Shown piece by piece: positions 15,757 to 30,252 of a stretch of DNA of 35,898 nucleotides. The translations under genes were made by a program, and so were the position numbers. The notes beneath the pieces are model-generated. The model was not told where the DNA came from. It did no database searches and saw only the letters and a program-made list of their open reading frames with translations. Each line of letters begins with the position of its first letter. Position 1 is the stretch's first letter. Source of the stretch: a virus; IMG/VR virus record IMGVR_UViG_3300013101_000041, positions 1 to 35,898 of that record; one strand, given 5' to 3'.

Positions 15757-15823
15757 GGAGGTATGTATCTCTCGGTCTGCTCGTGCCGAGTTACCAATGC
15801 GAGCCTTCCTTACCAATAAATTT

Positions 15824-16705
15824 ATGAAATATTTATCATTATTCTCTGGCATTGGAGGTTTCGAGCTAGGAATTGGAGGCAAAGCAGAATGTATCGGATA
15901 TTCTGAGATAGATAAATATGCAATCCAAATATATGAAAAACACTTCCCAACTCACACTGCCTTTGGAGACATCACAAAAATCGAGGCAGCGACACTACCG
16001 AATTTTGATCTCTTGGTGGGTGGGTTCCCGTGTCAATCCTTCTCTATTGCTGGGAAACGAGGAGGGTTTTCTGATACGCGTGGTACGCTCTTCTTTGAAA
16101 TCGCTCGGATTGCTCGGGAAAAACAACCACGCTTTTTACTCCTTGAAAATGTCAAAGGGCTTTTATCTCACGACAAAGGACGTACGTTCTACACCATCAT
16201 CTCCACGCTTGATGAATTGGGGTATGACTGTCAATGGCAAGTGCTTAACAGCAAGAATTTCGGCGTCCCACAAAACAGAGAGCGAGTGTTCATTATCGGA
16301 CATCTTAGAGGAACGCGTAGACCCCAAGTATTTCCTTTCGGAGAAGATGACAAAATATATCCTATCAACAGTAAAGGGACAAAATCAAAAACCAAACATA
16401 CTTTTTCAACTATAGCGACCAACACAAAAAGAAAAGAGAGTAATTATATTAGGCAACCACTTCGATTCCTCACAAGAAACCAAAAGAATATAGAGGGTGA
16501 TTATTCCTTCACAGTGGATGCGAGCCAAACGAGCGGGATAAGAAAAGGTGATAAAATTCGCAGACTAACTCCCACAGAGTGCGAGCGATTACAAAGCTTC
16601 CCGGACGACTGGACCGAGGGCGTGAGCGACACACAGCGCTACAAATGCCTGGGAAATGCTGTGACGGTGAACGTGGTGCAGGCGATTATAGAAAAATTAT
16701 TGTAA
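15824..16705 (+). CDS. DNA cytosine-C5 methyltransferase (orphan)
   Basis: A protein of 293 residues with all hallmark motifs: I (SLFSGIGGFELG, 5-16), IV with the catalytic Cys70 (GGFPCQSFS), VI (ENVKGL, 108-113), VIII (QNRERVFIIG, 150-159) and X (GNAVTVNVV near the C terminus). It transfers methyl from S-adenosylmethionine to C5 of cytosine. ATG 15824 puts MKYLSLFSG at the start, as in the family; ATG 15797 would add nine unusual residues. No restriction enzyme lies nearby, so its job is probably to protect phage DNA. The target site cannot be read from sequence. The upstream 67 bp hold a 5-bp hairpin (15771-15790). Confidence 0.9.
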   Translation: MKYLSLFSGIGGFELGIGGKAECIGYSEIDKYAIQIYEKHFPTHTAFGDITKIEAATLPNFDLLVGGFPCQSFSIAGKRGGFSDTRGTLFFEIARIAREKQPRFLLLENVKGLLSHDKGRTFYTIISTLDELGYDCQWQVLNSKNFGVPQNRERVFIIGHLRGTRRPQVFPFGEDDKIYPINSKGTKSKTKHTFSTIATNTKRKESNYIRQPLRFLTRNQKNIEGDYSFTVDASQTSGIRKGDKIRRLTPTECERLQSFPDDWTEGVSDTQRYKCLGNAVTVNVVQAIIEKLL

Positions 16706-16927: not shown

Positions 16928-17018
16928 TTATCCACATATTGCACGATTGTACTATTGCATAGTGTGTAAAGATTGTGTATACTTTGTGCAGAAAGGTCGG
17001 ATACTTTACTTATATAAT
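16928..17018 (+). promoter_or_regulatory. Control region of the recombination operon
   Basis: It holds a consensus DnaA box TTATCCACA (16928-16936), a perfect 5-bp palindrome ACTAT-TGC-ATAGT (16951-16963) that could be an operator, and TATAAT at 17013-17018. Nine bases separate the latter from the ATG at 17028, so the mRNA would be nearly leaderless. No clear -35 at 17 bp is seen. Confidence 0.5.
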
Positions 17019-17027
17019 AAATTGAAT

Positions 17028-17957
17028 ATGACAAAAAATATAGTCATAAAAACCGAAGGAGATTTGAAACTTGTACTACACAATGAGTACATGAAACAGA
17101 TCAAAAACTTTTTCGGTGACGACAAAAAAGCAATGAAATTTTTGTCTTGCGTAATTGGCGCGGTACAGAAGACGCCGAAACTTCTTGAGTGTGATGGTAA
17201 AAGTCTCGTGAACTCTTTTATGAAGATGGCACAGCTCGGACTTATGCCGAGTGATGTGAGCGGCGAGGCGTATGTATTACCCTACAAAAACAAAGGGGTG
17301 CAGGAGGCACAATTTCAACTCGGATACCAGGGTCTTATTACTCTATTCTATAGGGCAGGAGGCCAGCGCTTGCGTGCGGAGATCATCCGCAAAAATGATA
17401 CATTCTCTTATGAGAATGGAGAGATCAAACACACCGTCGACATCTTCAAAACAAAGAAGCAGAGAGGTGAAGCGGTGGGCGCGTATGCCATTGCTACTCT
17501 TGCGAGCGGTCACGAAATTGCTCACGCAATGAATGCAGAAGATATCCTCGACTTTGGGAAAAAATTCTCAAAATCATTCGGATCAAAATATACACCATGG
17601 GCAGAAGACAATGACCCGGAATTGTGGATGTGGAAAAAGACGGTGATGAAGCAGCTCGGGAAACTGTTGCCAAAAAATGAGACGATCAACCGTGCCATTG
17701 CAGAAGATAACGAAGAGAGCCGAATGAGTGATCGAATAAAAAAAGCAAGCGAAGAGTCCGAAGGTTTGAAAATCAGCGACATTGTCAAAGATCAAGACGA
17801 GCCGGAGTCGCAGGAAGGCTTGATCGAGGATGATGCGGAAGAACCGCCAGAGGCGGAGTGTAATGGTTGTGCTGGTCCGATATCAGAAGAGGAGAAAAAA
17901 TACTCACTTGATAAATTCGGGAAATCTCTTTGCAGAGGTTGCCAGGAAGGCCAATAA
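17028..17957 (+). CDS. recT: RecT-family single-strand annealing protein with zinc-ribbon tail
   Basis: A protein of 309 residues. The core (about 20-210) has RecT hallmarks: a helical start, NSFMKMAQLGLMPS (about 64-77), GEAYVLPYKNKG, FQLGYQGLITLFYRAG (about 97-112), and WMWKKTVMKQLGKLLPK near 200. RecT anneals complementary single strands in phage recombination and replication. The C-terminal 90 residues are acidic and then carry CNGC and CRGC (two Cys pairs), an unusual zinc-ribbon end. ATG 17028 was chosen because it lies 9 nt after TATAAT. The nuclease partner follows after 3 nt. Confidence 0.9.
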   Translation: MTKNIVIKTEGDLKLVLHNEYMKQIKNFFGDDKKAMKFLSCVIGAVQKTPKLLECDGKSLVNSFMKMAQLGLMPSDVSGEAYVLPYKNKGVQEAQFQLGYQGLITLFYRAGGQRLRAEIIRKNDTFSYENGEIKHTVDIFKTKKQRGEAVGAYAIATLASGHEIAHAMNAEDILDFGKKFSKSFGSKYTPWAEDNDPELWMWKKTVMKQLGKLLPKNETINRAIAEDNEESRMSDRIKKASEESEGLKISDIVKDQDEPESQEGLIEDDAEEPPEAECNGCAGPISEEEKKYSLDKFGKSLCRGCQEGQ

Positions 17958-17960
17958 TAT

Positions 17961-19952
17961 ATGACTAAGAAACTAAACAAAGTCCCGAAGGTCAAGAAGG
18001 GTGTAATGAGATATCGGTCTAATAATTTTCCGGTGAAATATTACTCGTATTCATCGCTAAACCTCTTCGCAACTAACCCCTTGATGTTCAAAATTAGATA
18101 TGTCAACCTTGACCGTATAGATTCCACGAGAAGCATATCTGGTGTAATAGGTACCGCCTTTCACAAAGCAATGGAGGTGTACTTCGGTGGAAACCCGGAC
18201 ATGAAACCGAAGGATGAGGAGGATGCGATCAAACTCGGGCTTGAGACCGGCATGGATTTTCTGAATAAATATCAAGAGGGCTGGATCGAATATTCAAAGA
18301 CAGTTCCGGCAAAACAAAAAGCGCTCGAATTATTGAGCTTCATGTACACCTCATACGTGAAGGAGAAGCCACACAAGAAGGATGAAGAGCTTTTAGGTAG
18401 TGAACTTGAGATAAGTGTACCCATAGACATAGAATGGCGCGGAAAAACGCTCGTATTGCCGATCCCGCTCAAGGGGTTCATGGACAAAGTGATTCGTGTT
18501 GATGGGAAACTCAAGATTGTTGATTATAAGACGTGTCGATCTTTCTCGAACCCGGACAAAATTGATGGCAGGAAAATGCTGCAGGCGATTCAATATTATT
18601 TTCTTGTGTACGCATATTTCGGAGAGGAGCCATACTCAATGATCTATGAAGAGGTGAAGAGCTCAAAAAATAGAGACGGAAGCAAACAGGTGAAGGAATA
18701 CGAGATCGTATTTGCGGAAAATGATTTGTATTTTGATTTTTATTTGCGCTTATATGATGATGTAACGCGTGCACTAGCAGGCGAACAAGTCTATGTACCG
18801 AACCTTGATACCTTTTTCGATAATGAGGTCGGTATCATATCGTATATTCACCGCCTGGACATGTCAGAAGAGCAGGCGCAGATGATGAAAAAACACAAGG
18901 TCGATAATCTCACAGATCTACTCAAGCAAAAGATACAGACAGCCGGAAACATGCGACAGCTTATGAAGACGGTGGAAACAAAATTTGTATCTGCGAAAAA
19001 TCTAAACTATAGTCGTATGAAAAACGAAGAAAAAATCACAACCAAAATGATGGAGCATGGTATGATGATCCAGTTCCATGACAAGATAGAGGGCGCGACT
19101 GTTGACTTGTACCGCTACACGCCATCTATAGGGTTGAAAATGAGCCAGCTCAAAAACTATGCTGCAGACATAGAGCAGGTACTCGGAAAAACGGGCATCC
19201 GAATATTGGCGCCGATACCAAACTCGACAATGATCGGGCTTGAAGTACCAAAGGACGAGCGATATTTCCCGGCGCTTCCGGAAGCAAGCGGGGATTTCAA
19301 TATAGCGATAGGTCAAACAATTCTCGGAGAAACGAAGCGCTTTGACTTGAGAGACGCTCCGCATTTGTTAGTCGCCGGCGCAACCGGAAGCGGTAAAAGT
19401 GTATTCTTGAACAGTATGATTGAGCAACTTGCATGTATTGATAATATTGATCTGCATTTGTTCGATCCGAAGATGGTCGAGCTCGTACAGTACGAAGACA
19501 AGGCAATGCAATATTTCAGCGATCATGTTGAGATCAACGAAGCCCTCGAATACTTGGTCCTCGAGATGGAGGAGCGATACGAAAAAATGAAGAAAATAAA
19601 AGCCCGTAATATTGAGCAGGCCGGCAATATGAATTATAAGTTTGTGGTGATCGATGAGTTCGGAGATCTCACAGTCAACAATGACAGGGTACAGCGTAAC
19701 GTATTGCTACTAGCACAGAAGGCTCGAGCCGCCGGTATCCATATGATTATCGCCACACAGAGGCCGTCTGTCGATGTGATAAGCGGTACGATCAAAGCGA
19801 ACTTTCCTACAAAGGCAGTTTTCAGAGTAGCAAAAGAGGTGGACTCTCGCGTCGTTCTTGATATGGCCGGAGCAGAGAAGCTCGCCGGGAAAGGTGATAT
19901 GTTATTCTCAAGCGAAGCGGGCATCGAGCGCCTGCAAGGCTTTAATATTTAG
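17961..19952 (+). CDS. RecB-like PD-(D/E)XK nuclease fused to an FtsK-type DNA translocase
   Basis: A single open frame of 663 residues. Residues 1-300: RecB/Cas4-type nuclease with H68 (GTAFHKAME), D175 (LKGFMDKV), D188 and K190 (IVDYKT) and Q208 in a QAIQYY motif. Residues 330-440: the alpha-beta domain that precedes FtsK motors (IGLKMSQLKNYAADI, then RILAPIPNSTMIGLEVP). Residues 455-663: FtsK ATPase with Walker A GATGSGKS (473-480), Walker B FVVIDEFGDL (561-570), ATQRPSVDVISG, and GAEKLAGKGDML. The membrane and gamma (KOPS-reading) parts of cellular FtsK are absent. Directly after RecT, so it would make single strands for annealing while moving along DNA. This fusion is new to me. Confidence 0.85.
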   Translation: MTKKLNKVPKVKKGVMRYRSNNFPVKYYSYSSLNLFATNPLMFKIRYVNLDRIDSTRSISGVIGTAFHKAMEVYFGGNPDMKPKDEEDAIKLGLETGMDFLNKYQEGWIEYSKTVPAKQKALELLSFMYTSYVKEKPHKKDEELLGSELEISVPIDIEWRGKTLVLPIPLKGFMDKVIRVDGKLKIVDYKTCRSFSNPDKIDGRKMLQAIQYYFLVYAYFGEEPYSMIYEEVKSSKNRDGSKQVKEYEIVFAENDLYFDFYLRLYDDVTRALAGEQVYVPNLDTFFDNEVGIISYIHRLDMSEEQAQMMKKHKVDNLTDLLKQKIQTAGNMRQLMKTVETKFVSAKNLNYSRMKNEEKITTKMMEHGMMIQFHDKIEGATVDLYRYTPSIGLKMSQLKNYAADIEQVLGKTGIRILAPIPNSTMIGLEVPKDERYFPALPEASGDFNIAIGQTILGETKRFDLRDAPHLLVAGATGSGKSVFLNSMIEQLACIDNIDLHLFDPKMVELVQYEDKAMQYFSDHVEINEALEYLVLEMEERYEKMKKIKARNIEQAGNMNYKFVVIDEFGDLTVNNDRVQRNVLLLAQKARAAGIHMIIATQRPSVDVISGTIKANFPTKAVFRVAKEVDSRVVLDMAGAEKLAGKGDMLFSSEAGIERLQGFNI

Positions 19953-19956
19953 TCTT

Positions 19957-20274
19957 ATGGAAAAAGTACCAAAACAAATTATAAAACTTGAAATGTTGGT
20001 CGCGGACATTATGGATATAGATATTCCGGGGATGAGGTCTCCCAATAGAGAAAAATTGTGTTCAGTCGCACGATCTATTGTTTGGTTCGTTGCACACAAA
20101 GAGCTAGGATATACATCTACATTTCTCGGAAGGCTTTACAACAGACACCATTCTACAATTTTGGCAGGAGTCAAAAAAATAGAAAAAATTCAAAAATTGG
20201 AGAATGCGCAAACATTGTTAAAAAACATGAAGAAGGAAAATAAGGATATTTTCGAGCTTATTTTTCCTCTCTAG
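19957..20274 (+). CDS. Stand-alone DnaA domain IV-like DNA-binding protein
   Basis: A protein of 105 residues. ATG 19957 starts 4 nt after the translocase stop. Residues 29-76 match DnaA domain IV: SPNREKLCSVARSIVWFVA, then FLGRLYNRHHSTILAGVKKIE. The DnaA signature RDHST is here RHHST (63-67), so the Asp is replaced by His. The AAA+ and other DnaA domains are absent. It probably binds DnaA boxes in the origin directly downstream and may recruit, replace or compete with host DnaA. The exact effect is inference. Confidence 0.8.
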   Translation: MEKVPKQIIKLEMLVADIMDIDIPGMRSPNREKLCSVARSIVWFVAHKELGYTSTFLGRLYNRHHSTILAGVKKIEKIQKLENAQTLLKNMKKENKDIFELIFPL

Positions 20275-20541: not shown

Positions 20542-20925
20542 ATGAAAAAAGAAATATTACACTTCACCATTCAAGGAGAGCTCACGGAACTAAACACATA
20601 CACCAAAAAAAATAGGAGTAGCAAATTTGCCGGGAGTAAAATCAAAAAAGAGGAGACCGACAGGGTCGCGCTCGAGGCGAAAGCAGCAAGGATCAAGCCG
20701 GTGGTGAATTATCCGGTATTTATTCAGTACCGCTGGTATTCAAAAGACCGAAGAAAAGATATAGACAATGTGGCGTTTGCAAAGAAGTTTATAAACGACG
20801 GCCTTGTAGTTGCGGGTGTGCTCAAAGATGATTCGAGGAAATGTGTGCGTGGATTTTCAGATTATTTTTTTATCGACAAAAAGAATCCACGAGTGGAGGT
20901 CTATATAATTTTTGAGGATATGTAG
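20542..20925 (+). CDS. rusA: RusA-like Holliday junction resolvase
   Basis: A protein of 127 residues, the normal length for RusA. Key acidic and basic residues are present: KDIDN (D73, D75), FAKKFINDGLV (K81/K82, D86) and VLKDDSRK (D96, D97). RusA resolves four-way junctions as a dimer with Mg2+, preparing branched phage DNA for packaging. It lies just after the origin and near RecT, in keeping with recombination-dependent replication. No Shine-Dalgarno site; atATG context. Confidence 0.85.
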   Translation: MKKEILHFTIQGELTELNTYTKKNRSSKFAGSKIKKEETDRVALEAKAARIKPVVNYPVFIQYRWYSKDRRKDIDNVAFAKKFINDGLVVAGVLKDDSRKCVRGFSDYFFIDKKNPRVEVYIIFEDM

Positions 20926-21202: not shown

Positions 21203-21832
21203 ATGTCAGATTCAAAAACAGTCGCAACAAAAAACCTTTTTGATTTTGCTGATATTTTAGAACGGCTCGGTATACCTTTTTTTCTTGAAGGTGGCACACT
21301 TCTCGGTGCATATCGCGATGGTGATTTTTGTCTCGGTGATGAAAATGATATTGATCTTGGATCGTATGCAAAATATCAAGATAGGATCCCCGAAATAATC
21401 GAAGCAGCGAAAAAAGAAGGATTCAAACTGTATCACCACTGGACAGGAGATCCACGGGCGCCGGGCAAAGCACAAGAGATCGCCATTGTCCGTGGTACTT
21501 GTTTGATTCCAGAGTTATCAGTAGAAAAACAGATGAAAATAGACTTGTTTTTTTATGAGGAAAAAGAGGATAAAGCATGGACTTGCGTATACAAAAAAAA
21601 CAGATGCACACCGCGCGTCGTACCATTGGCAAGTATCAGAGACCTCGGAATTATTGCTTTCAAAGGACGCCCATTCAATAGACCCGGCAACATAGAAGCC
21701 TACCTCGAGCACACATACGGCGACTGGAAGACTCCAATACACAGGAGAGATTATAGCTGTTATAATCCGGATCAACTCAAAGCATTACAACCTGATTTTA
21801 AATTTTATGAAAAAGGAGACTCTGATTTTTAA
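21203..21832 (+). CDS. LicD-family phosphotransferase
   Basis: A protein of 209 residues. LicD hallmarks: LEGGTLLGAYRDGDF (28-42) and DENDIDLG (46-53), which provide the metal-binding Asp of the nucleotidyltransferase-like fold. LicD enzymes move phosphocholine or a similar phospho-alcohol from a CDP donor onto glycans. The next gene is a cytidylyltransferase that could make that donor, and the two overlap by 26 nt, so production is probably coupled. The target could be host surface glycan (to block other phages) or a virion or DNA-linked sugar. Soluble, no signal peptide. Confidence 0.8.
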   Translation: MSDSKTVATKNLFDFADILERLGIPFFLEGGTLLGAYRDGDFCLGDENDIDLGSYAKYQDRIPEIIEAAKKEGFKLYHHWTGDPRAPGKAQEIAIVRGTCLIPELSVEKQMKIDLFFYEEKEDKAWTCVYKKNRCTPRVVPLASIRDLGIIAFKGRPFNRPGNIEAYLEHTYGDWKTPIHRRDYSCYNPDQLKALQPDFKFYEKGDSDF

Positions 21833-22229
21833 CGCCGGAATTTATGATCTCATGCACAGAGGGCATTTGAATCTTTTGCGCAGGATGAGAGAACGATCCG
21901 ACAAATTGGTTATCGTCATACACGATGACAAATCTTGTTTTGAAATCAAAGACAAAATACCGATTCAAGATCTAGATCATCGCATAAACAATCTCACCAT
22001 AATCAATATACCGGACGAGATTTACCCTGCATATACTGCGGATCCGGCAATGATATTCGCAAAGATCATCCACAAATACAGCGATGAATATGATTTAATT
22101 TACATGCGTGGCGATGATCTTGTCGATGATTTTCCAGGAAAATGGCAGCTAGAGGAGCATGGCATAAAAATCGAATACCTACCCTACACAAAAGGCGTGA
22201 GTAGTTCGCAAATTAAAGATTCACTATGA
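21807..22229 (+). CDS. CTP-dependent cytidylyltransferase (TagD/CCT-like)
   Basis: A protein of 140 residues, the usual length for glycerol-3-phosphate cytidylyltransferases. It has the family motif GIYDLMHRGHLNLL with the HxGH signature (H17 to H20) and the C-terminal KGVSSSQIK, the counterpart of the RTEGISTT motif. It would join CTP with a phospho-alcohol (choline-, glycerol- or ethanolamine-phosphate) to give a CDP donor. Its start lies inside the LicD gene, its expected user. Substrate is not readable from sequence. Confidence 0.8.
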   Translation: MKKETLIFNAGIYDLMHRGHLNLLRRMRERSDKLVIVIHDDKSCFEIKDKIPIQDLDHRINNLTIINIPDEIYPAYTADPAMIFAKIIHKYSDEYDLIYMRGDDLVDDFPGKWQLEEHGIKIEYLPYTKGVSSSQIKDSL

Positions 22230-22570
22230 ATAACAATATGCAAAAACTACAAGAACTCAGAGAGATAATAATTAAAGCGGTTCCTGATATTGTAGGAAAA
22301 GAAGACTGTCCTTGTAACGGATGGAAATATGTAATAAGAACTGAGTGTAAGGAATGCAGAGGGCTTGAGGGCTTTAGATTAAAATATAGAAAAATCCGCC
22401 TCGTAGATGTTTTGTTGGCTGTAAAAAAGATAGGATATTCATCTACAGAAAAATGGAGACTTCAAAAAGATAATGTTTTTAAATTGGTAGAATTATGGAA
22501 CCTCAAAAAAAACGATCTCAATAATCAATCAGAAGAAACTATCAACTTTTTACACGGATTATTAAAATAA
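22226..22570 (+). CDS. Conserved phage protein with Cys pairs
   Basis: A protein of 114 residues, overlapping the previous stop (ATGA). Near residues 28-50 it has CPC and CKEC, which could bind zinc. The second half (KIRLVDVLLAVKKIG, then LWNLKKNDLNNQSEETINFL) belongs to a hypothetical family common in metagenomic phages, of unknown function. A later ATG at 22238 is a possible start. Confidence 0.6.
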   Translation: MNNNMQKLQELREIIIKAVPDIVGKEDCPCNGWKYVIRTECKECRGLEGFRLKYRKIRLVDVLLAVKKIGYSSTEKWRLQKDNVFKLVELWNLKKNDLNNQSEETINFLHGLLK

Positions 22571-22574
22571 CTAT

Positions 22575-22748
22575 ATGTTCAAAGACACACCAGAAGGGAC
22601 AACCCATCATGAGCATGATGATTGCAATGATGGAAAGGGTCATCCTATGCCCAAACAAGACATGTTAAAAGGTTCGATGCACTTTGGGGAGGATACGACC
22701 CAAGTGAAGATGCAGATGGGTTGGATAAAAAAACCAAAGACTTTGTAG
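22575..22748 (+). CDS. 57-residue hypothetical protein
   Basis: ATG 22575 to TAG 22748, atATG context. The opening FKDTPEGTTHHEHDDC is a pattern I have met at the start of small phage proteins, followed by a His/Cys/Asp-rich stretch that could bind metal. The second half is less protein-like, and in the -1 frame a better frame is open from about 22650, so this gene and the next may originally have been one, joined by a frame change. Confidence 0.5.
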   Translation: MFKDTPEGTTHHEHDDCNDGKGHPMPKQDMLKGSMHFGEDTTQVKMQMGWIKKPKTL

Positions 22749-22912
22749 TCCAAGAAATAAAAACAGCGTTGATAGAGGTTTTAGACGCAATAGATGAATA
22801 TGTTGAAAATAATAAAATGTTAGGAATGGACGACAAGGCTGACATTGAGAAATATATAGTAGGAATAAGAACGAGACCAAGTGGCTGGAATATAAACAAG
22901 AAGACTAACTAA
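22721..22912 (+). CDS. Hypothetical protein with uncertain start
   Basis: A helical, acidic protein (IKTALIEVLDAIDEYVENN) ending near RTRPSGWNINKKTN. TTG 22721 is the first possible start in frame. The frame is open back to 22631 and reads HVKRFDALWGGYDPSEDADG before this TTG, which looks like genuine protein, so the true N terminus is probably upstream and may be reached by a frameshift from the gene at 22575. No ATG or GTG is available there. Confidence 0.45.
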   Translation: MDKKTKDFVVQEIKTALIEVLDAIDEYVENNKMLGMDDKADIEKYIVGIRTRPSGWNINKKTN

Positions 22913-22919
22913 TAAATAT

Positions 22920-23093
22920 ATGGAAGAAGAAAAACTTTCTGGAACATCAACATGGACAATGTGCGATCATTACGGCTTTTATTTCAAGCACTGGCTAAAA
23001 ACACTTTTTGTCTGTACTAAGTGTGGAACAATTCTTACAAAGAGACAAATATCTTTTTACAAAAGGTACAACAGCCCAGAGGAGACTAATTAA
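22920..23093 (+). CDS. 57-residue zinc-ribbon-like protein
   Basis: ATG 22920 to TAA 23093. It has one CxxC (VCTKCG, about residues 31-36) and C14/H16 upstream (MCDHYGF), which could together bind zinc. The sequence around its start is nearly identical to that around the next gene's start (20 of 21 bases). Confidence 0.6.
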   Translation: MEEEKLSGTSTWTMCDHYGFYFKHWLKTLFVCTKCGTILTKRQISFYKRYNSPEETN

Positions 23094-23100
23094 TAAATAT

Positions 23101-23430
23101 ATGACGATTATAATGTTGCTTGTCCTCCATCATATCGCCGACGTTTGCACACAGCCCTCGTGGCTTATCGAAAACAAAAAGAAATATTCGTTTGCTATTT
23201 TTGAACACGTGATGATCTATGCCGGACTTATTGGCGGTGCGTTCTCACTCTTTTTTGATACTGGTATTTTTGTTTTCTTGTGGTTTTTTGTAGGCCATTA
23301 CATCACCGACTTTATAAAATATCTAGTCTTGCCAAAGATGCACGGAGGAGAGCACAAATACAAATGGATATACTTAGACCAGGCGGCTCACTACGCACAG
23401 ATTTTGATCGCCTTTTGTTTTTTTATATAA
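23101..23430 (+). CDS. DUF3307 membrane protein
   Basis: A protein of 109 residues with about three membrane helices. Family motifs are LLVLHHIADVCTQPSWL at the start, GHYITDFIKYLVLPK in the middle, and YLDQAAHYAQILIAF at the end; the His and Asp pairs in the helices (HHIAD, HYITD, DQAAH) are conserved in DUF3307. Function unknown; also found on other mobile elements. The ATG follows the stop of the previous gene by 7 nt. It lies between small genes and the methyltransferase-glycosyltransferase run, so an envelope role is possible. Confidence 0.75.
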   Translation: MTIIMLLVLHHIADVCTQPSWLIENKKKYSFAIFEHVMIYAGLIGGAFSLFFDTGIFVFLWFFVGHYITDFIKYLVLPKMHGGEHKYKWIYLDQAAHYAQILIAFCFFI

Positions 23431-23433
23431 CAT

Positions 23434-23961
23434 ATGCAAGCATACGAACGCATTGACCGTCGCAAAATATTCGACGGGAAGACAAGGGATAGTCACGAGA
23501 TACGCTATCGAATGGCTAGACAGTTTATCAAGGACGGTGACATTGTTCTTGATGCCTGCTGCGGGACGGGATACGGGATCCAGTTTTTGAAAACCCCAAA
23601 AGCTCTGGGCATGGTTCGGTGGATAGGTATAGACAAAAAACCAATACACGCCGATATCTCAGAGTACGATTTTGAGAGAGAAGAGAATATTGAGATTGAG
23701 CCGTTTGATGTATTTGTAGGACTCGAATGTATTGAGCATCTCAATCATGTTGGTGTTATAAATTTTGTAGGGTTGGCAAAGCAGGCAAAAAAATACATTG
23801 TTATTTCGACGCCCATCACACCAAACAGCAACCCTTTTCATGTGCAACAGTTTACACGAGAGGCTGTCTTGACCATGTTTAAAGGCGGGGGTTGGGAAGA
23901 TTACGCATATTTCGAGCAAGATGAAATATACGGAATATTTATTTTTAAAAAAACAGTATGA
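23434..23961 (+). CDS. SAM-dependent methyltransferase 1
   Basis: A protein of 175 residues. Class I fold: VLDACCGTGYG (38-48) is the SAM-binding loop, WIGIDKKP the acidic second strand, and FDVFVGLECIEHLNHVG (about 90-106) the motif IV region. The last strand (YGIFIFKK) completes the fold. Substrate unknown; the following methyltransferase and glycosyltransferases suggest a glycan or small-molecule target. It overlaps the next gene by 4 nt (ATGA). Confidence 0.8.
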   Translation: MQAYERIDRRKIFDGKTRDSHEIRYRMARQFIKDGDIVLDACCGTGYGIQFLKTPKALGMVRWIGIDKKPIHADISEYDFEREENIEIEPFDVFVGLECIEHLNHVGVINFVGLAKQAKKYIVISTPITPNSNPFHVQQFTREAVLTMFKGGGWEDYAYFEQDEIYGIFIFKKTV

Positions 23962-24431
23962 GCAATGAAATAAAGCTCGATATTGGGTCGGGTTGTGCAA
24001 AAAGAGAAGGGTATGTCACGATCGACAAAGACCCGAAGGTAGATGCAAGTTATTGTATGGATATTGAAAATTCAGAAGATCAAAATATATTGCTATACAA
24101 AAAACCTGTAGCAGAAATAAGAGCCTTCCACATCCTCGAGCATCTCGATCCTACAAAGAAAGTAGAGATGATGAAATTATTTTTTGATCTTTTGACGCCT
24201 GGCGGGATACTTCATATCGAAGTACCTATCGCAGGCACAGAGCAGTTTTGGCAGGACCCGACGCACATATCAGGGTGGACAGCACGAACATTCTGGTACT
24301 TCACAAAAGGCAATAATTTCGGGGAGGCATTCGCAAAAAGAAATAGTGATGCACGACTCTTTGAGAAGATCGAAGACGAGACACGTGACTGCTGGGCGTA
24401 TCGAATAATGTTTAAAAAACCACTCGTATGA
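23958..24431 (+). CDS. SAM-dependent methyltransferase 2
   Basis: A protein of 157 residues with KLDIGSGCAKREGYVTID (about 6-23) as SAM-binding region, IRAFHILEHLDPTKK (about 53-67) and LTPGGILHIEVP (about 79-90). This is the sub-family often found with glycosyltransferases in surface polysaccharide loci. Overlaps of 4 nt at both ends tie it to methyltransferase 1 and the glycosyltransferase that follows. Confidence 0.8.
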   Translation: MSNEIKLDIGSGCAKREGYVTIDKDPKVDASYCMDIENSEDQNILLYKKPVAEIRAFHILEHLDPTKKVEMMKLFFDLLTPGGILHIEVPIAGTEQFWQDPTHISGWTARTFWYFTKGNNFGEAFAKRNSDARLFEKIEDETRDCWAYRIMFKKPLV

Positions 24432-25087
24432 TAAGCGTTATATCCGTAGATTTTCATAGTGGACCATTCAAGGATATTCTTATTGATTCACTCAAGAGAA
24501 ACGCAGACCCAGACGGCCCCGAGTATGAAGTCTTGATCCACGACAATGGTGCAGGCGAGAATATGGGCCATGCGAACGGTGTGGAAAGACTCATTGTGCA
24601 GGCCAAATATAACACGATCCTTTTGCTAGATATTGACGCCCATGTCATGCTTCCGCATTGGAATACAATATTGATGCAACGGAAAAATGAGGAGTGGGAA
24701 AAGGGCGTGCGTCTTATCGCCGGAGACGGCGGAAAATTGAAGCCGGTGCGTCCATGCGTGATGATGTTTGAACGAGATTATTTCACAGAAAACAAGATGA
24801 CATTTTTGTCAAAGAATGTGGAAGGTGCGAAATTTGACGTGGGCGTCCTATTCTATTTTCAAGTATTGAGCAGAGGGGACGACGTCGGTTTTTTCACACA
24901 TGCAAAGAGCAGCTATCCGGACACGATAGGAAACGATTATTATTTTGACGGCAATCCTTTCGTTTTTCACCACTGGTATGGTACGAGATGGTTTAACCCA
25001 AAAGGAGAAAGGGTGCATGACAAGATCGATTCGCTCACGTGGGAAAAGTTCAAGCAGTCTCGAGATTCACTTATTTCACAATTATGA
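24428..25087 (+). CDS. GT-A-fold glycosyltransferase-like protein
   Basis: A protein of 219 residues. It opens MISVISVDFHSGPFKDILIDS like family 2 glycosyltransferases, and has LLLDIDAHVMLP (about 60-71) holding a DxD-type metal motif. The C-terminal half has HHWYGTRW, as in related transferases. It lies between a methyltransferase and a double glycosyltransferase, with 4-nt overlaps. Donor and acceptor sugars are unknown. Confidence 0.65.
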   Translation: MISVISVDFHSGPFKDILIDSLKRNADPDGPEYEVLIHDNGAGENMGHANGVERLIVQAKYNTILLLDIDAHVMLPHWNTILMQRKNEEWEKGVRLIAGDGGKLKPVRPCVMMFERDYFTENKMTFLSKNVEGAKFDVGVLFYFQVLSRGDDVGFFTHAKSSYPDTIGNDYYFDGNPFVFHHWYGTRWFNPKGERVHDKIDSLTWEKFKQSRDSLISQL

Positions 25088-26721
25088 AAAAAGTAACTGC
25101 GATAGTAATCAGTTTCCTACGTCCCGGATATACAAAAGCGTGCATCCGGTCTTTGCGTAAAACGTACCCAAAGATCAGAATCATAGTCGGTGAAAACGGC
25201 AAGAAGGATATCGGCCTTGCGCAGGTATGCAACGAGGTGAAGGCGAGATATGTGATGCTACCGTTTGACTCCGGTGTATGCGTAGGGCGTAATAAATTGC
25301 TCGAGCTAGTGAAAACAAAATATGTACTTGTTGGGGATGATGATTTTTTCTATACCGAAAAGGCCGGAGTGGACAAGATGAAAAAGTTTCTTGATAAGCA
25401 CGGGGAATACGATCTTGTCGGTGGTCGTGTGACAGTGGGCGGTGTGCTGCAAAATTATCAAGGTTATACAAAGAAAGTAGACAGGCATTTTGAGAGTACA
25501 CCTATCGATCCGGAGACAATAAAATATCAAACAGATGATATAAGATATTGCCAGGCAGATTTGACCTTCAATTATTTCGTTGCAAGAACGGAAAAAATAA
25601 GACCGACACCGTGGGACGAGAAAATCAAGGTCGCATACGAACACTATAGCTGGTTTTATGACTTCAAATGCGCCGGTGGCAAGGTAGCGTTTTCTCCGAA
25701 CCCTGTCGTCATACATAAACCCGAACATGTGAACCCGGAATATGCTGGGGATTATGCGAGTTTCCGGAATAGAAAAAGTGACCGTGCGCGCTTCTTTCAG
25801 AAATATGATATCGATTATTCAATCGATATGCGCGGGCATATCAGCTATTCGCCGTTATATACAAGGAAAAAAGAAATAAATATGAGAGCGACAAAATACG
25901 TTGACTTTTGCATCACCACATTCAAGAGACCCAAAGCATTGAGACGCTTGCTTATCTCAATCGCAAGGCATTTTCCGATGGCAAATGTTTATGTGGCGGA
26001 TCAAAACGAAAAACTAGATCGTGTATTCTATAAGAAAATGCGAAGAGAGTTGGAGAAAATAGGGTTATCAAAGAGGCTTTTCATTATAGATTTGCCATAT
26101 GACTGCGGGCTTGCACATGCAAGAAATTATCTTGTTTTGAACACACCAAACAAATACAAATTGATTCTCGATGACGACATGGCTTTTACAGAAGAGACGG
26201 ATATCGGAAAAATGGTCACGCTACTCGATCAACATCCGAAATGTGGTATTGTGGGCGGTATGGTTAAGCAGCTAGGACACGAAATACATTTTGAGTTCTC
26301 GCTCGAAATCATAGGAAACACTATAATGCACACACCGGACGGACAACCCACTAGGGATTTTGAAGGCATATCGTACAGAAAGACCGGGTGTGTATTGAAT
26401 TTTGCTATGATGAGAAAAGACATGTTCGGATATATTCAATGGGATCGCAATTTGAAAGTCACCGAGCATACGGATTTTTATTTACAGATGAAAAAAGTGC
26501 CGATGTATATACTCTATACGCCGGATGTGGTAGTCAATCATCCACCCGTAGAAAAAGATGAGCAGTATTCGGAATACAAAGCCTTGCGCCAAAGAAAGGA
26601 ATTTATGGTCAAGATGCTCAAAAAATACAAAGTCACCCGTGTCAAATATCTCAATGGACAAGTCACAGAGTTGATGCCAGACGGCGCACTCAAAAGATAC
26701 AAAGAGCTGCCAATACAATAG
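25084..26721 (+). CDS. Tandem double family-2 glycosyltransferase
   Basis: A protein of 545 residues from ATG 25084 (overlap of 4 nt with the previous gene). Two GT2-like domains follow one another. First: VTAIVISFLRPGYTKACIRS, DSGVCVGRNKLLE and GDDDFFYT (about 83-90). Second, from about 270: VDFCITTFKRPKALRRLL, DCGLAHARNYLV and LDDDMAFT (about 363-370). Both keep the acidic DDD motif, so both may be active, like polymerising or two-step transferases. The second domain starts with a Met after KKEI (about residue 267), so it may once have been a separate gene. Target is unknown. Confidence 0.8.
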   Translation: MKKVTAIVISFLRPGYTKACIRSLRKTYPKIRIIVGENGKKDIGLAQVCNEVKARYVMLPFDSGVCVGRNKLLELVKTKYVLVGDDDFFYTEKAGVDKMKKFLDKHGEYDLVGGRVTVGGVLQNYQGYTKKVDRHFESTPIDPETIKYQTDDIRYCQADLTFNYFVARTEKIRPTPWDEKIKVAYEHYSWFYDFKCAGGKVAFSPNPVVIHKPEHVNPEYAGDYASFRNRKSDRARFFQKYDIDYSIDMRGHISYSPLYTRKKEINMRATKYVDFCITTFKRPKALRRLLISIARHFPMANVYVADQNEKLDRVFYKKMRRELEKIGLSKRLFIIDLPYDCGLAHARNYLVLNTPNKYKLILDDDMAFTEETDIGKMVTLLDQHPKCGIVGGMVKQLGHEIHFEFSLEIIGNTIMHTPDGQPTRDFEGISYRKTGCVLNFAMMRKDMFGYIQWDRNLKVTEHTDFYLQMKKVPMYILYTPDVVVNHPPVEKDEQYSEYKALRQRKEFMVKMLKKYKVTRVKYLNGQVTELMPDGALKRYKELPIQ

Positions 26722-27492: not shown

Positions 27493-28428
27493 ATGAAGAA
27501 TTTTGAAATTTCACAAATAAAAACATACGGAAAAAATGCAAAGAAGCATACCAAAAAACAAATTGAGCAGGTAGCGGCGAGCATAAAAAAATTTGGTTTT
27601 AATCAGCCCATTGTAGTAGACAAAAACAATGTCGTAATTGTTGGTCATGGTCGTTTAGAGGCCGCGAAACTTCTAGGGTTGAAAGAAGTACCAACTCTGA
27701 CCGTAGAGCTTACAGAGGAGCAGGCAAAGGCGTATAGGCTTGCAGATAATAAGCTTAATGAGAGCGACTGGGATATGGGTTTAGTGATTGAAGAATTGAA
27801 AGAGCTTAATATACAAAAATTTGATATTGAGATTACGGGTTTCTCTATGGATTTGATTATTGAGCCAGAAGACAAGGACGATAAAGTGCCAGATGTACCA
27901 AAAGTACCAAAGGCTAAGCTAGGAGATATTTATCAGTTAGGAGAGCATAGAGTGATGTGTGGGGATAGTACGAAGATTGAGGACGTTGAAAAGCTGATGG
28001 ATGGTAAAAAGGCAGAAATGGTGTGGACAGATCCTCCATATAATGTAGATTATACAGGTAAGACAGAAGATGCTCTCAAACTTGAAAATGATAAAATGAA
28101 AAACAGTAGTTTTTATGATTTTCTTTTTAATTTTTTCTGTTGTGCAGAACATATAATGAATAAAGGATGTCCAATATATGTTACTCATGCAGATACGGAA
28201 GGCATAAATTTCAGGAAAGCCCTCAAAGATTCCGGTATAGAACTCAAACAATGTATTATTTGGGTAAAAAATTCAATGGTAATGGGAAGACAAGACTATC
28301 AATGGCAGCACGAACCTATACTGTACGGGTGGAAACCGGGCGCAGCACATAAGTGGTATGGGATGTTTGATAAAACAACAGTCAATGAAACCAGTCGGGC
28401 TGATTGTAAAATTTTTGATGAACAGTAG
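27493..28428 (+). pseudogene. ParB-domain DNA methyltransferase, N-terminal part of a split gene
   Basis: 311 residues. Residues 1-110 are a ParB N-terminal-like domain (GHGRLEAAKLLG, 51-62). From about 142 a beta-class amino-methyltransferase begins (GDIYQLGEHRVMCGDST, catalytic DPPY at 180-183, HEPILYGW near 285). After FDKTTV (codons to about 28384) the frame runs out with about 15 unrelated residues to a TAG. The SAM-binding FGGSGST part is in the next frame (28385-28597). Compared with relatives about 15-20 residues around HPTMKP also look absent. Either a frameshift/deletion has inactivated the gene or the two halves work as separate chains. Confidence 0.7.
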
Positions 28429-28597
28429 TGCAGAAAGCAATATAGTATATGACGCATTCGGAGGCTCTGGATCAACACTCATCGCAGCAGAAAAACTAAA
28501 AAGAAAATGCTACATGATGGAACTCGACCCAAAGTATATAGATGTAATTATAAAACGCTGGGAGGATTACACCGGACAAACAGCAGTAAAATTATAA
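28385..28597 (+). pseudogene. DNA methyltransferase, C-terminal part in +1 frame
   Basis: From ATG 28385 the frame reads MKPVGLIVKFLMNSS, then YDAFGGSGSTLIAAEKL (SAM-binding motif I) and MELDPKYIDVIIKRWEDYTG, the standard end of beta-class DNA methyltransferases. It overlaps the N-terminal part by 44 nt in the +1 frame. Alone it has no catalytic DPPY. If translated separately from ATG 28385 the two chains might still pair. The stop is 1 nt before the terminase small subunit gene. Confidence 0.7.
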
Positions 28598-28598
28598 T

Positions 28599-29018
28599 AT
28601 GTCTGAGATAACTAAAAAAAAAGGGAGAGGGTCAGACAAGAAGAAAGATTTGAATATTCCAGAAAATGCAGGAAAGAAACAGGCCAAAAGAGATAAGAAG
28701 GGGCGTTTTTTGCCCGGCGCTTCTGGCAATCCAGACGGTAAAAAAAAGGGTACATTATCATTCAAAACAAAATGGGAGTTATTTATAAAAAAAATAGCAG
28801 AGCAGAATAACATACTTCCCAAAGACATTGATGACGAATTAATTGCGGTCGCATATCAGAAAGCACGTGGTGGTGACTATAAATTTTTCAAAGATATCCA
28901 TGATCGTGTTTATGGAAAACCTCAAGAGAGCATTGACCACACAACCGATGGGGAAAAAATACAGACAAATCAAATCACATTTGTAAAATTCAACAAAGAT
29001 GAATCAAAACGTGAATGA
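28599..29018 (+). CDS. terS: Probable terminase small subunit
   Basis: A protein of 139 residues. The basic N terminus ends in KKGRFLPGASGNPDGKKKG (about 33-51), a motif of DUF5681-type proteins that precede large terminases. The middle is helical and KDIHDRVYGKPQESID near 107-122 is typical of the small subunit or its companion. It overlaps the large subunit by 20 nt. It should recognise phage DNA for packaging. Confidence 0.7.
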   Translation: MSEITKKKGRGSDKKKDLNIPENAGKKQAKRDKKGRFLPGASGNPDGKKKGTLSFKTKWELFIKKIAEQNNILPKDIDDELIAVAYQKARGGDYKFFKDIHDRVYGKPQESIDHTTDGEKIQTNQITFVKFNKDESKRE

Positions 29019-30252
29019 GGTATATTCGTCGCTGTTTCTTAATCAAGAGGCTAGATATTTCATCATCATGGGAGGTCGTGGAGCCGGTAGGTCCACAGCA
29101 GCCAGTCAATGTGCCGCAGCAAAACTCATGGGATCCGATTATTTCCGGTGCGCAATAATGCGCTTTGCTCTTTCTGATATTCGCAAATCTATTTTTCAAG
29201 ATATACGAGATCGCCTCGAAGAAAATGAGGTAGACAATCAAGTCAAAATACGAGAACATCTTTTGAATTTTCAATATGGTGATAACAGAATCGACGGTAT
29301 AGGTTTTCGCAAATCATCATCCGACCAAAAATCAAAGCTCAAGTCCCTTGCGAATTATAATACCGTCATAATTGAAGAGGCCGACGAAACACCGGAAGAA
29401 GATTTTATGCAGCTCGATGACTCACTTCGTACAAAAAAATCAAGTGTCAGTGTTGTAATGCTTCTCAACCCCCCGTCGAAAAATCACTGGATAATCCGCC
29501 GGTGGTTCAATCTGATACAGGCGCCAGGCGCGCCAGGCTTCTATATCCCACAATTAAAGGCGTTACACAAGAAAGATACCGTCTTCATCCACACAAGCTA
29601 TCTGGACAACATACAGAACATCACAGCCAGCACACAGCGCAATTACGAGAATTATAAAACAACAAACCCAGAGCATTACTACAATATGATCCGAGGGCTT
29701 GTGAGCGAGGGCGCGCGTGGCCGTATCTTCACAAACTGGAAGCCGATATCAGAAGCGGAATACGAAGCACTGGAATATGACGAATATTACGGGCTTGATT
29801 TTGGCTTCTCAAACGACCCGACTGCACTTGTTGGAATCAAAGATCATAATAATCGTGTTTATTTGAGAGAGCTTATTTATGAGACAGGACTTACAAATCC
29901 CGATATATGCAAAAAATTAGATAGTGTGGGCATTTCAAAACAGGCTATAAATTATGCGGATAGTGCAGAACCAAAATCAATCAAAGAAATAGCGAGTGAT
30001 GGGTGGAATATACAGCCGGCTGTGAAGGGCCCGGACAGCGTGCGTGCTGGTATTGATATGATGCTCTCAAAAGAAGTCTTCTATGTTGAGACGAGTAAAA
30101 ATCTCATCAAAGAACAAGAGGAATATAAATGGGCGCTTGATCGAAACAAGAACCCGACGAATAAACCAATTGACAAATTCAATCATCTCATGGACGCCTC
30201 GAGATATGGCGTCTACTCGAAAAGCCAACAAGGCTTTATCGGTTTTGTATAA
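28999..30252 (+). CDS. terL: Terminase large subunit (PBSX/Terminase_3-like)
   Basis: A protein of 417 residues. ATPase: Walker A GGRGAGRST (25-33), where the usual Lys is replaced by Arg, Walker B NTVIIEEADE (about 115-124), and MLLNPPSKNHW. Nuclease: YYGLDFGFSNDPTAL (about 261-275), YADSAEPKSI, and HLMDASRYG near the C terminus, giving the acidic residues of the RNase H-like site. It cuts and pumps DNA into the prohead. Gene order with portal, protease and capsid is standard. Confidence 0.9.
   Translation: MNQNVNEVYSSLFLNQEARYFIIMGGRGAGRSTAASQCAAAKLMGSDYFRCAIMRFALSDIRKSIFQDIRDRLEENEVDNQVKIREHLLNFQYGDNRIDGIGFRKSSSDQKSKLKSLANYNTVIIEEADETPEEDFMQLDDSLRTKKSSVSVVMLLNPPSKNHWIIRRWFNLIQAPGAPGFYIPQLKALHKKDTVFIHTSYLDNIQNITASTQRNYENYKTTNPEHYYNMIRGLVSEGARGRIFTNWKPISEAEYEALEYDEYYGLDFGFSNDPTALVGIKDHNNRVYLRELIYETGLTNPDICKKLDSVGISKQAINYADSAEPKSIKEIASDGWNIQPAVKGPDSVRAGIDMMLSKEVFYVETSKNLIKEQEEYKWALDRNKNPTNKPIDKFNHLMDASRYGVYSKSQQGFIGFV

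Follow-up and report, generated by a model that had tools for sequence, protein, structure and literature searches.

A PD-(D/E)XK nuclease joined to an FtsK-type motor beside phage RecT/Bet annealases: a putative one-chain, motor-driven DNA end-resection enzyme

In the stretch of viral DNA analysed here (the window, i.e. all 35,898 nucleotides of IMG/VR record IMGVR_UViG_3300013101_000041), the gene that starts 3 nt after the stop codon of recT encodes a nuclease and an FtsK-type DNA motor in a single polypeptide of 663 aa (17961..19952, + strand). This fusion probably acts as a one-chain, ATP-driven DNA end-resection enzyme for phage annealase-dependent recombination, although its activity, its assembly into a hexamer, its polarity and the handover of DNA to the annealase are inferred; what is established for it are its architecture, its conservation, the retention of its active sites, its linkage to an annealase and its predicted folds. 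On the likeliest reading, what is new is a module of the RecET/Red type whose exonuclease has become motor-driven, the activity again being an inference.

The frame at 17961-19952 opens with ATG and has no internal stop, and the Pfam models PDDEXK_1 (residues 28-252), FtsK_alpha (350-430) and FtsK_SpoIIIE (best stretch 443-557) match along it in this order, all above their gathering scores, so that the single unbroken frame from nuclease through FtsK alpha domain to motor that had been proposed is confirmed by translation and domain matches alike. PHROGs profiles identify an exonuclease in the N-terminal part (5.6e-15) and an FtsK/SpoIIIE-like protein at the C-terminal half (5.4e-72), and the GC content of the gene is even (0.40-0.48 per 300-nt step). 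The chain terminates at the motor, and no FtsK 4TM or gamma model is found among the Pfam matches up to E 1, in line with the proposed absence of the FtsK membrane and gamma domains. Capture of a whole host FtsK is ruled out, as there is no membrane or gamma part; the FtsK-like genes of the window's own assembly sit on other contigs. The full-length structural model has a mean pLDDT of 80.6 and a pTM of 0.47, with a linker (residues 299-347; 18855..19001, +) whose pLDDT is below 50 at residues 299-314 and 316-347 and which, judging by the model, is perhaps flexible. Each domain is well predicted, but with this pTM and this low-confidence linker the relative placement of nuclease and motor in the model is unresolved.

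Relatives of the fusion, at about 30-62% identity, are encoded by 14 further loci: 12 IMG/VR contigs (L001, L002, L008-L015, L034 and L035) and two GTDB genome contigs (L032, in a Patescibacteria-titled record, and L033, in a Bacteroidia-titled record). Together with the window this gives 15 loci, 13 of them complete and two ending at contig ends (L010, cut near the end of the motor, and L012, cut at residue 463, before Walker A), which is a lower bound because the locus searches start from short patterns. In the multiple alignment, 11 relatives share 52-62% identity with the window protein, while L013-L015 form a distant group (34-35% in that alignment, 30-32% by tblastn); all three Pfam domains are present in the window protein and in all five relatives scanned, the whole distant group among them. 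Three sets of matches were left out, namely L016 (undecided, matching only at residues 172-224 and cut by a contig end), L017 (matching at the same residues, with a 243-aa frame that reads as a plain nuclease) and L040-L043 (repeats of the contigs of L014, L015, L013 and L009). An assembly join, which according to the original prediction would have refuted the fusion, is not borne out: the independent loci, 14 in all, exclude it, since 13 encode nuclease and motor in one frame and the remaining one, L012, runs from the nuclease to its contig end.

In a tree of motor domains the 14 usable fusion motors lie on one side of a branch and 21 others on the other (support 89/84, not starred). This tree omits the truncated L012 and has long branches meeting, and as inferred from these sequences it leaves unresolved whether the fusion arose once or twice. 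No full fusion was recovered from the phage and plasmid collections: none of 246 matching INPHARED records covers 80% of the fusion query (0/241 with the distant query), and neither does any of 797 matching PLSDB records, while the nuclease half alone matched three phage records; very diverged nucleases would be missed by these searches. A library of viral structures yielded a 400-aa 'PD-(D/E)XK nuclease superfamily protein' of virus sp. ctkyY8 (442 columns, 25% identity), which might represent an incomplete relative that is already on record with this designation. The window itself belongs, as contig 5, to an assembly of 492 contigs whose contamination is estimated at 7%. A full-length match to the fusion was found in this assembly only, among 99 genomes of the related set, and a match to the nuclease at 1e-8 likewise in this assembly only, among 42 related genomes. 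Given the contamination and the lack of matches in the 98 and 41 other genomes, the host of the phage is not established.

The nuclease domain (residues 28-252; 18042..18716, +) matches PDDEXK_1 at 7.5e-17 (62.5 bits against a cut-off of 22), and H68, E148, D175, D188, K190, K205 and Y212 are identical in all 15 loci. Among the catalytic residues named beforehand, H68, D175, D188 and K190 thus hold throughout, but Q208 of the QxxxY motif is not invariant, being replaced by A in two loci. When modelled alone (residues 18-302), the nuclease reaches a mean pLDDT of 90.7 and a pTM of 0.88, and its best matches among solved structures are AdnA (Z 15.4), RecE (Z 15.1) and the putative exonuclease 3l0a (Z 15.0), followed by AddB (14.2), an Argonaute-associated Cas4-family protein (13.3), Dna2 (13.0) and MGME1 (12.9); lambda exonuclease (8.6-9.0) and RecB (about 7-9) score lower. 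Rows differing by less than 1 in Z were counted as tied, and a RecE-like and an AdnA-like nuclease can therefore not be separated. AdnA, RecE, AddB and Dna2 all work at DNA ends. A sequence profile of the nuclease, searched against PDB sequences, gave a single match at E 0.85, which was taken as chance, and hence no convincing relative; NurA has no Pfam match in the fusion protein up to E 1. Iron-sulphur nucleases of the AddB/Cas4 type carry four cysteines in the nuclease domain, and with only zero to three cysteines per domain in the 15 loci such a four-cysteine site is, on these counts, excluded.

Downstream of the linker, the FtsK alpha domain (residues 350-430; 19008..19250, +) matches PF17854 at 3.5e-12 (46.8 bits, cut-off 22.9) and the FtsK/SpoIIIE motor (residues 443-663; 19287..19949, +) matches PF01580 at 1.9e-29 (103.1 bits, cut-off 24). 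Walker A (residues 473-480; 19377..19400, +) and Walker B (residues 561-570; 19641..19670, +) are found exactly where they had been placed, with G473, G476, G478, K479 and S480 of the former and D565 and E566 of the latter kept in all 14 loci that include the motor. The same holds for D502, Q586, R589, Q600, K612 and K618, and R601 is kept in 13 of the 14; R601 and K612 would fall at DNA-contact positions of FtsK. Residues 352-663 of the model superpose on E. coli and P. aeruginosa FtsK (Z 33.4-35.5 over 310-312 residues, rmsd 1.8-2.3), including DNA-bound forms, and on HerA chains with a Z of about 16-21. The HerA central domain model (DUF87) stays under its cut-off in the window fusion (21 against 23.2 bits) and scores 25.1-34.4 bits in the five relatives scanned, with FtsK_SpoIIIE scoring far higher in each. 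Above cut-off, the motor region matches only FtsK_SpoIIIE and, weakly, Pox_A32 (25.9 bits, cut-off 22.8), and no helicase model from Pfam reaches its cut-off there. The NCBIfam equivalog model for FtsK gives the fusion 170 bits against a cut-off of 1566.

The gene upstream in the window encodes the single-strand annealing protein RecT (17028..17957, +; PF03837 3.8e-37, phrog_148 3.2e-61), which passes TIGR00616 with 138 bits (cut-off 52.65) and whose reading frame opens at a TTG at 16947, the likely start being the ATG at 17028. A gene of the PF03837 RecT family lies directly upstream of the fusion in all 15 loci, so that the proposed check whether such proteins cluster with recT comes out positive. 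If every frame is taken to begin at its earliest start codon, the two genes overlap by 1-143 nt in every locus except the window, where they are 3 nt apart. The partner is of the RecT type in 11 loci and of another, Bet-like type in four (L002 and L013-L015). The window RecT matches 10 of the 14 other partners at 41-60% identity and has no match at E 0.001 to those of L002 and L013-L015, whose matches are to different phage families, RecT-like and Bet-like. Of the two Bet-like partners scanned against NCBIfam, that of L014 passes the cut-off for lambda Bet (78.0 against 76.95 bits), and that of L002 remains below it (55.9 bits), though Bet is the sole NCBIfam model that it matches; the L013 and L015 partners share 65% and 85% identity, respectively, with that of L014. 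As a sequence-based assignment, the Bet label is therefore firm for L014 only, while that of L013 and L015 rests on their identity to L014. In the motor tree the L002 fusion groups with the RecT-linked fusions, so probably one of the two genes, annealase or fusion, was replaced while the other was retained. This apparent change of annealase type beside a retained fusion is the strongest argument tying the job of the fusion to annealing. Since the 11 loci with a RecT-type partner may all descend from a single operon, the 15 loci should not be counted as 15 independent events. As a separate observation, the C-terminal tail of the window RecT (17856-17957) contains two CxxC pairs that by eye resemble a small zinc ribbon and that were not seen in the last 40 residues of the 14 other partners.

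The window is a tailed-phage contig, with terminase, portal, protease, major head and tape-measure genes. A gene for a RusA-like Holliday junction resolvase (20542..20925, +; phrog_1682 1.3e-34) is located 0.6 kb downstream of the fusion, in the same recombination region. In all four loci tested, a small gene downstream of the fusion has only the DnaA C-terminal DNA-binding domain (PF08299; window 19858-20274, L002:8335-8664, L008:8025-8339, L009:6106-6378), and its product could compete with host DnaA or mark a phage origin. Further along, the window has a cassette (21203-26721) of LicD-like, nucleotidyltransferase-like, (weakly) methyltransferase-like and double glycosyltransferase genes, and by eye similar glycosyltransferase starts follow the fusion in L008 and L009. 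A gene for a ParB-N6/N4 DNA methyltransferase is split into overlapping frames (27493-28428 and 28358-28597) that match its first and its last part, respectively, which may represent a pseudogene, a programmed shift or a sequencing error; a second DNA methyltransferase gene (15797-16705) is whole and, by eye, of the C5 type. At 275-2770 a long protein is encoded with many imperfect NDSRDAEITG-type repeats and no Pfam match. On the L032 contig, cysteine desulfurase-like and NifU-like genes (by eye) lie upstream of recT, which is possibly a prophage junction and a clue to the host.

FtsK-class rings pull double-stranded DNA. By inference from FtsK, the alpha and motor domains of the fusion would form a ring around the duplex near an end, pull it in and present the DNA to exonuclease domains of the RecB/RecE type carried on the flexible linker. 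One strand would then be degraded, probably the 5' strand, an inference from the substrate that RecT and Bet require, and this would leave a 3' single strand to be bound by the RecT or Bet product of the adjacent upstream gene; such resection would serve the recombination-dependent replication of the phage, concatemer formation and break repair. Since the FtsK gamma domain is absent, movement should not follow the KOPS signals of the host, in keeping with a motor that sets off at DNA ends and not at signals on the host chromosome. In HerA-NurA, a HerA/FtsK-class translocase drives a nuclease at a DNA end and leaves a 3' tail (PMC9960219). Because the same two ingredients are found here in one chain, next to an annealase for which 3' tails are the expected substrate, motor-driven resection is the reading preferred here. 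It had been put forward for RecT originally, and it now finds support in the annealase neighbour at all 15 loci, the change of annealase type, the conserved active sites and the likeness of folds, with the activity itself inferred. A bolder version, possible but no more than tentative, makes the fusion a one-polypeptide phage counterpart of RecBCD, in which six FtsK motors would ring the duplex, drive it through the tethered exonucleases and hand the strand directly to RecT or Bet.

Whether the motor is needed for resection at all is less clear. To our knowledge, the well-known systems of the RecT/Red type use a motor-free exonuclease. Among 10 RecT/Bet control loci, hand-picked from 50 listed of the 681 and 62 phage records matching RecT and Bet, respectively, eight have an annotated exonuclease or YqaJ gene (208-377 aa) near the annealase, which in this small control upholds the earlier statement that RecT is partnered by a plain exonuclease in other phages; the other two (L047 and L049) have no gene named exonuclease or YqaJ, and in the stretches read around the 10 annealase loci no gene is annotated as FtsK. 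Since phages whose exonuclease is plain get by without a motor, that of the fusion may serve something else. It might merely be an accessory that clears bound proteins or delivers the enzyme to ends, with the nuclease resecting alone, like RecE or lambda exonuclease, and without coupling to ATP. The linker leaves tight coupling undemonstrated, and the nuclease fold is equally close to the motor-free RecE and to AdnA/AddB. That nuclease and motor are kept in one chain down to 30-32% identity, with all examined motor residues retained, speaks against an accessory, which we consider unlikely but which remains a serious rival. A split form (i.e. annealase, plain nuclease and a separate FtsK gene adjoining) was not found in the 15 public-record stretches read. 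Four human-faeces 'Bacteriophage sp.' records with FtsK (L036-L039; MT836147, MT835527, MT837090 and MT835572) were rejected as split versions, since by eye they resemble pieces of bacterial chromosome around ftsK. In Mycobacterium phage Bobby (L054), a stand-alone gene for an FtsK-like translocase lies near a gene for a Ku-like end-binding protein, with one small gene between them, and this proximity again hints that FtsK motors of phages are able to act on DNA ends.

The combination of a nuclease with a translocase motor would also suit an enzyme that moves along the host chromosome and degrades host or competing DNA, thereby freeing nucleotides or disabling the host, and the whole methyltransferase of the window might in that case mark the DNA of the phage. 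The annealase gene directly upstream in every locus argues otherwise, as does the lack of a gamma (KOPS-reading) or target-recognition domain among the Pfam matches, and host DNA degradation is an improbable, though not excluded, explanation. Similarly improbable is that the fusion takes part in defence or counter-defence in the manner of HerA/FtsK-capture systems (DndH/SspH, HerA-nuclease), or that it replaces or blocks host RecBCD/AddAB. Fusions of REase and HerA/FtsK domains are a described defence theme (PMC10853773), the PADLOC SspH models match the fusion at 5.9e-38, and a DruK nuclease model weakly matches the nuclease (0.0019); the strong matches are, however, confined to the motor (residues 464-648 and 395-659), the linkage to an annealase is constant, and the neighbouring genes look like phage genes wherever they are matched (in Pfam and PHROGs scans, PADLOC not having been applied to them). 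A motor for packaging, genome segregation or concatemer cutting is scarcely credible, for although FtsK/HerA-like ATPases package DNA in membrane-containing viruses (PMC7824862), this phage has its own portal, major head protein and terminase large subunit with a nuclease domain (28999..30252, +; Terminase_3 6.1e-29, Terminase_3C 1.2e-14), and a separate terminase makes such a role for the fusion unlikely.

With motor-driven resection as the preferred reading, the fusion would be a one-chain equivalent of HerA-NurA or AddAB within a RecET/Red layout, and it can be set beside known systems. With RecE-RecT and lambda Red exo-Bet it shares the adjoining genes for an annealase and a PD-(D/E)XK exonuclease as well as the RecE fold, but its exonuclease bears the FtsK alpha domain and a motor with intact Walker residues. 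AddAB, AdnAB and RecBCD similarly couple a nuclease of this fold to a motor, but their motors are SF1 helicases, whereas that of the fusion is a HerA/FtsK-class translocase. Cellular FtsK/SpoIIIE has the same alpha and motor domains, both above cut-off in the fusion, which carries a nuclease where the membrane part would be and lacks a gamma match. HerA-NurA likewise combines a HerA/FtsK-class translocase with a nuclease (PMC9960219), yet the fusion is one polypeptide, has an FtsK-type motor with an FtsK alpha domain and a nuclease of the RecB/RecE type rather than NurA, and is partnered by an annealase. DndH/SspH and other HerA/FtsK-capture systems also have a nuclease and a HerA/FtsK motor in one protein or operon, but are described as defence against invaders (PMC10853773), whereas the fusion sits in a phage recombination operon with a RecT/Bet-like annealase and the SspH match does not extend over its nuclease. 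The same source also notes, from a different neighbourhood, a HerA/FtsK protein to which a 3'-5' exonuclease domain is fused. The claim that no such fusion had been described beside RecT still stands for the literature searched (mostly without subscription papers): no exonuclease-FtsK fusion beside RecT or Bet is described in the accessible portions of PMC10853773, PMC5512222, PMC8190038, PMC7824862 and PMC9960219.

Single-residue changes can kill each activity separately, which makes the idea directly testable. The fusion would provide a simple one-gene model of motor-coupled resection and is a possible new tool for RecT-based DNA engineering. If the counterpart to RecBCD were real, it would mean a processive, ATP-powered annealase pathway that is not known in RecET/Red and that is usable with different annealase types. 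More generally, a motor-fused exonuclease occurring across diverged phages and annealase types would link the HerA/FtsK translocases to annealase-dependent recombination in phages.
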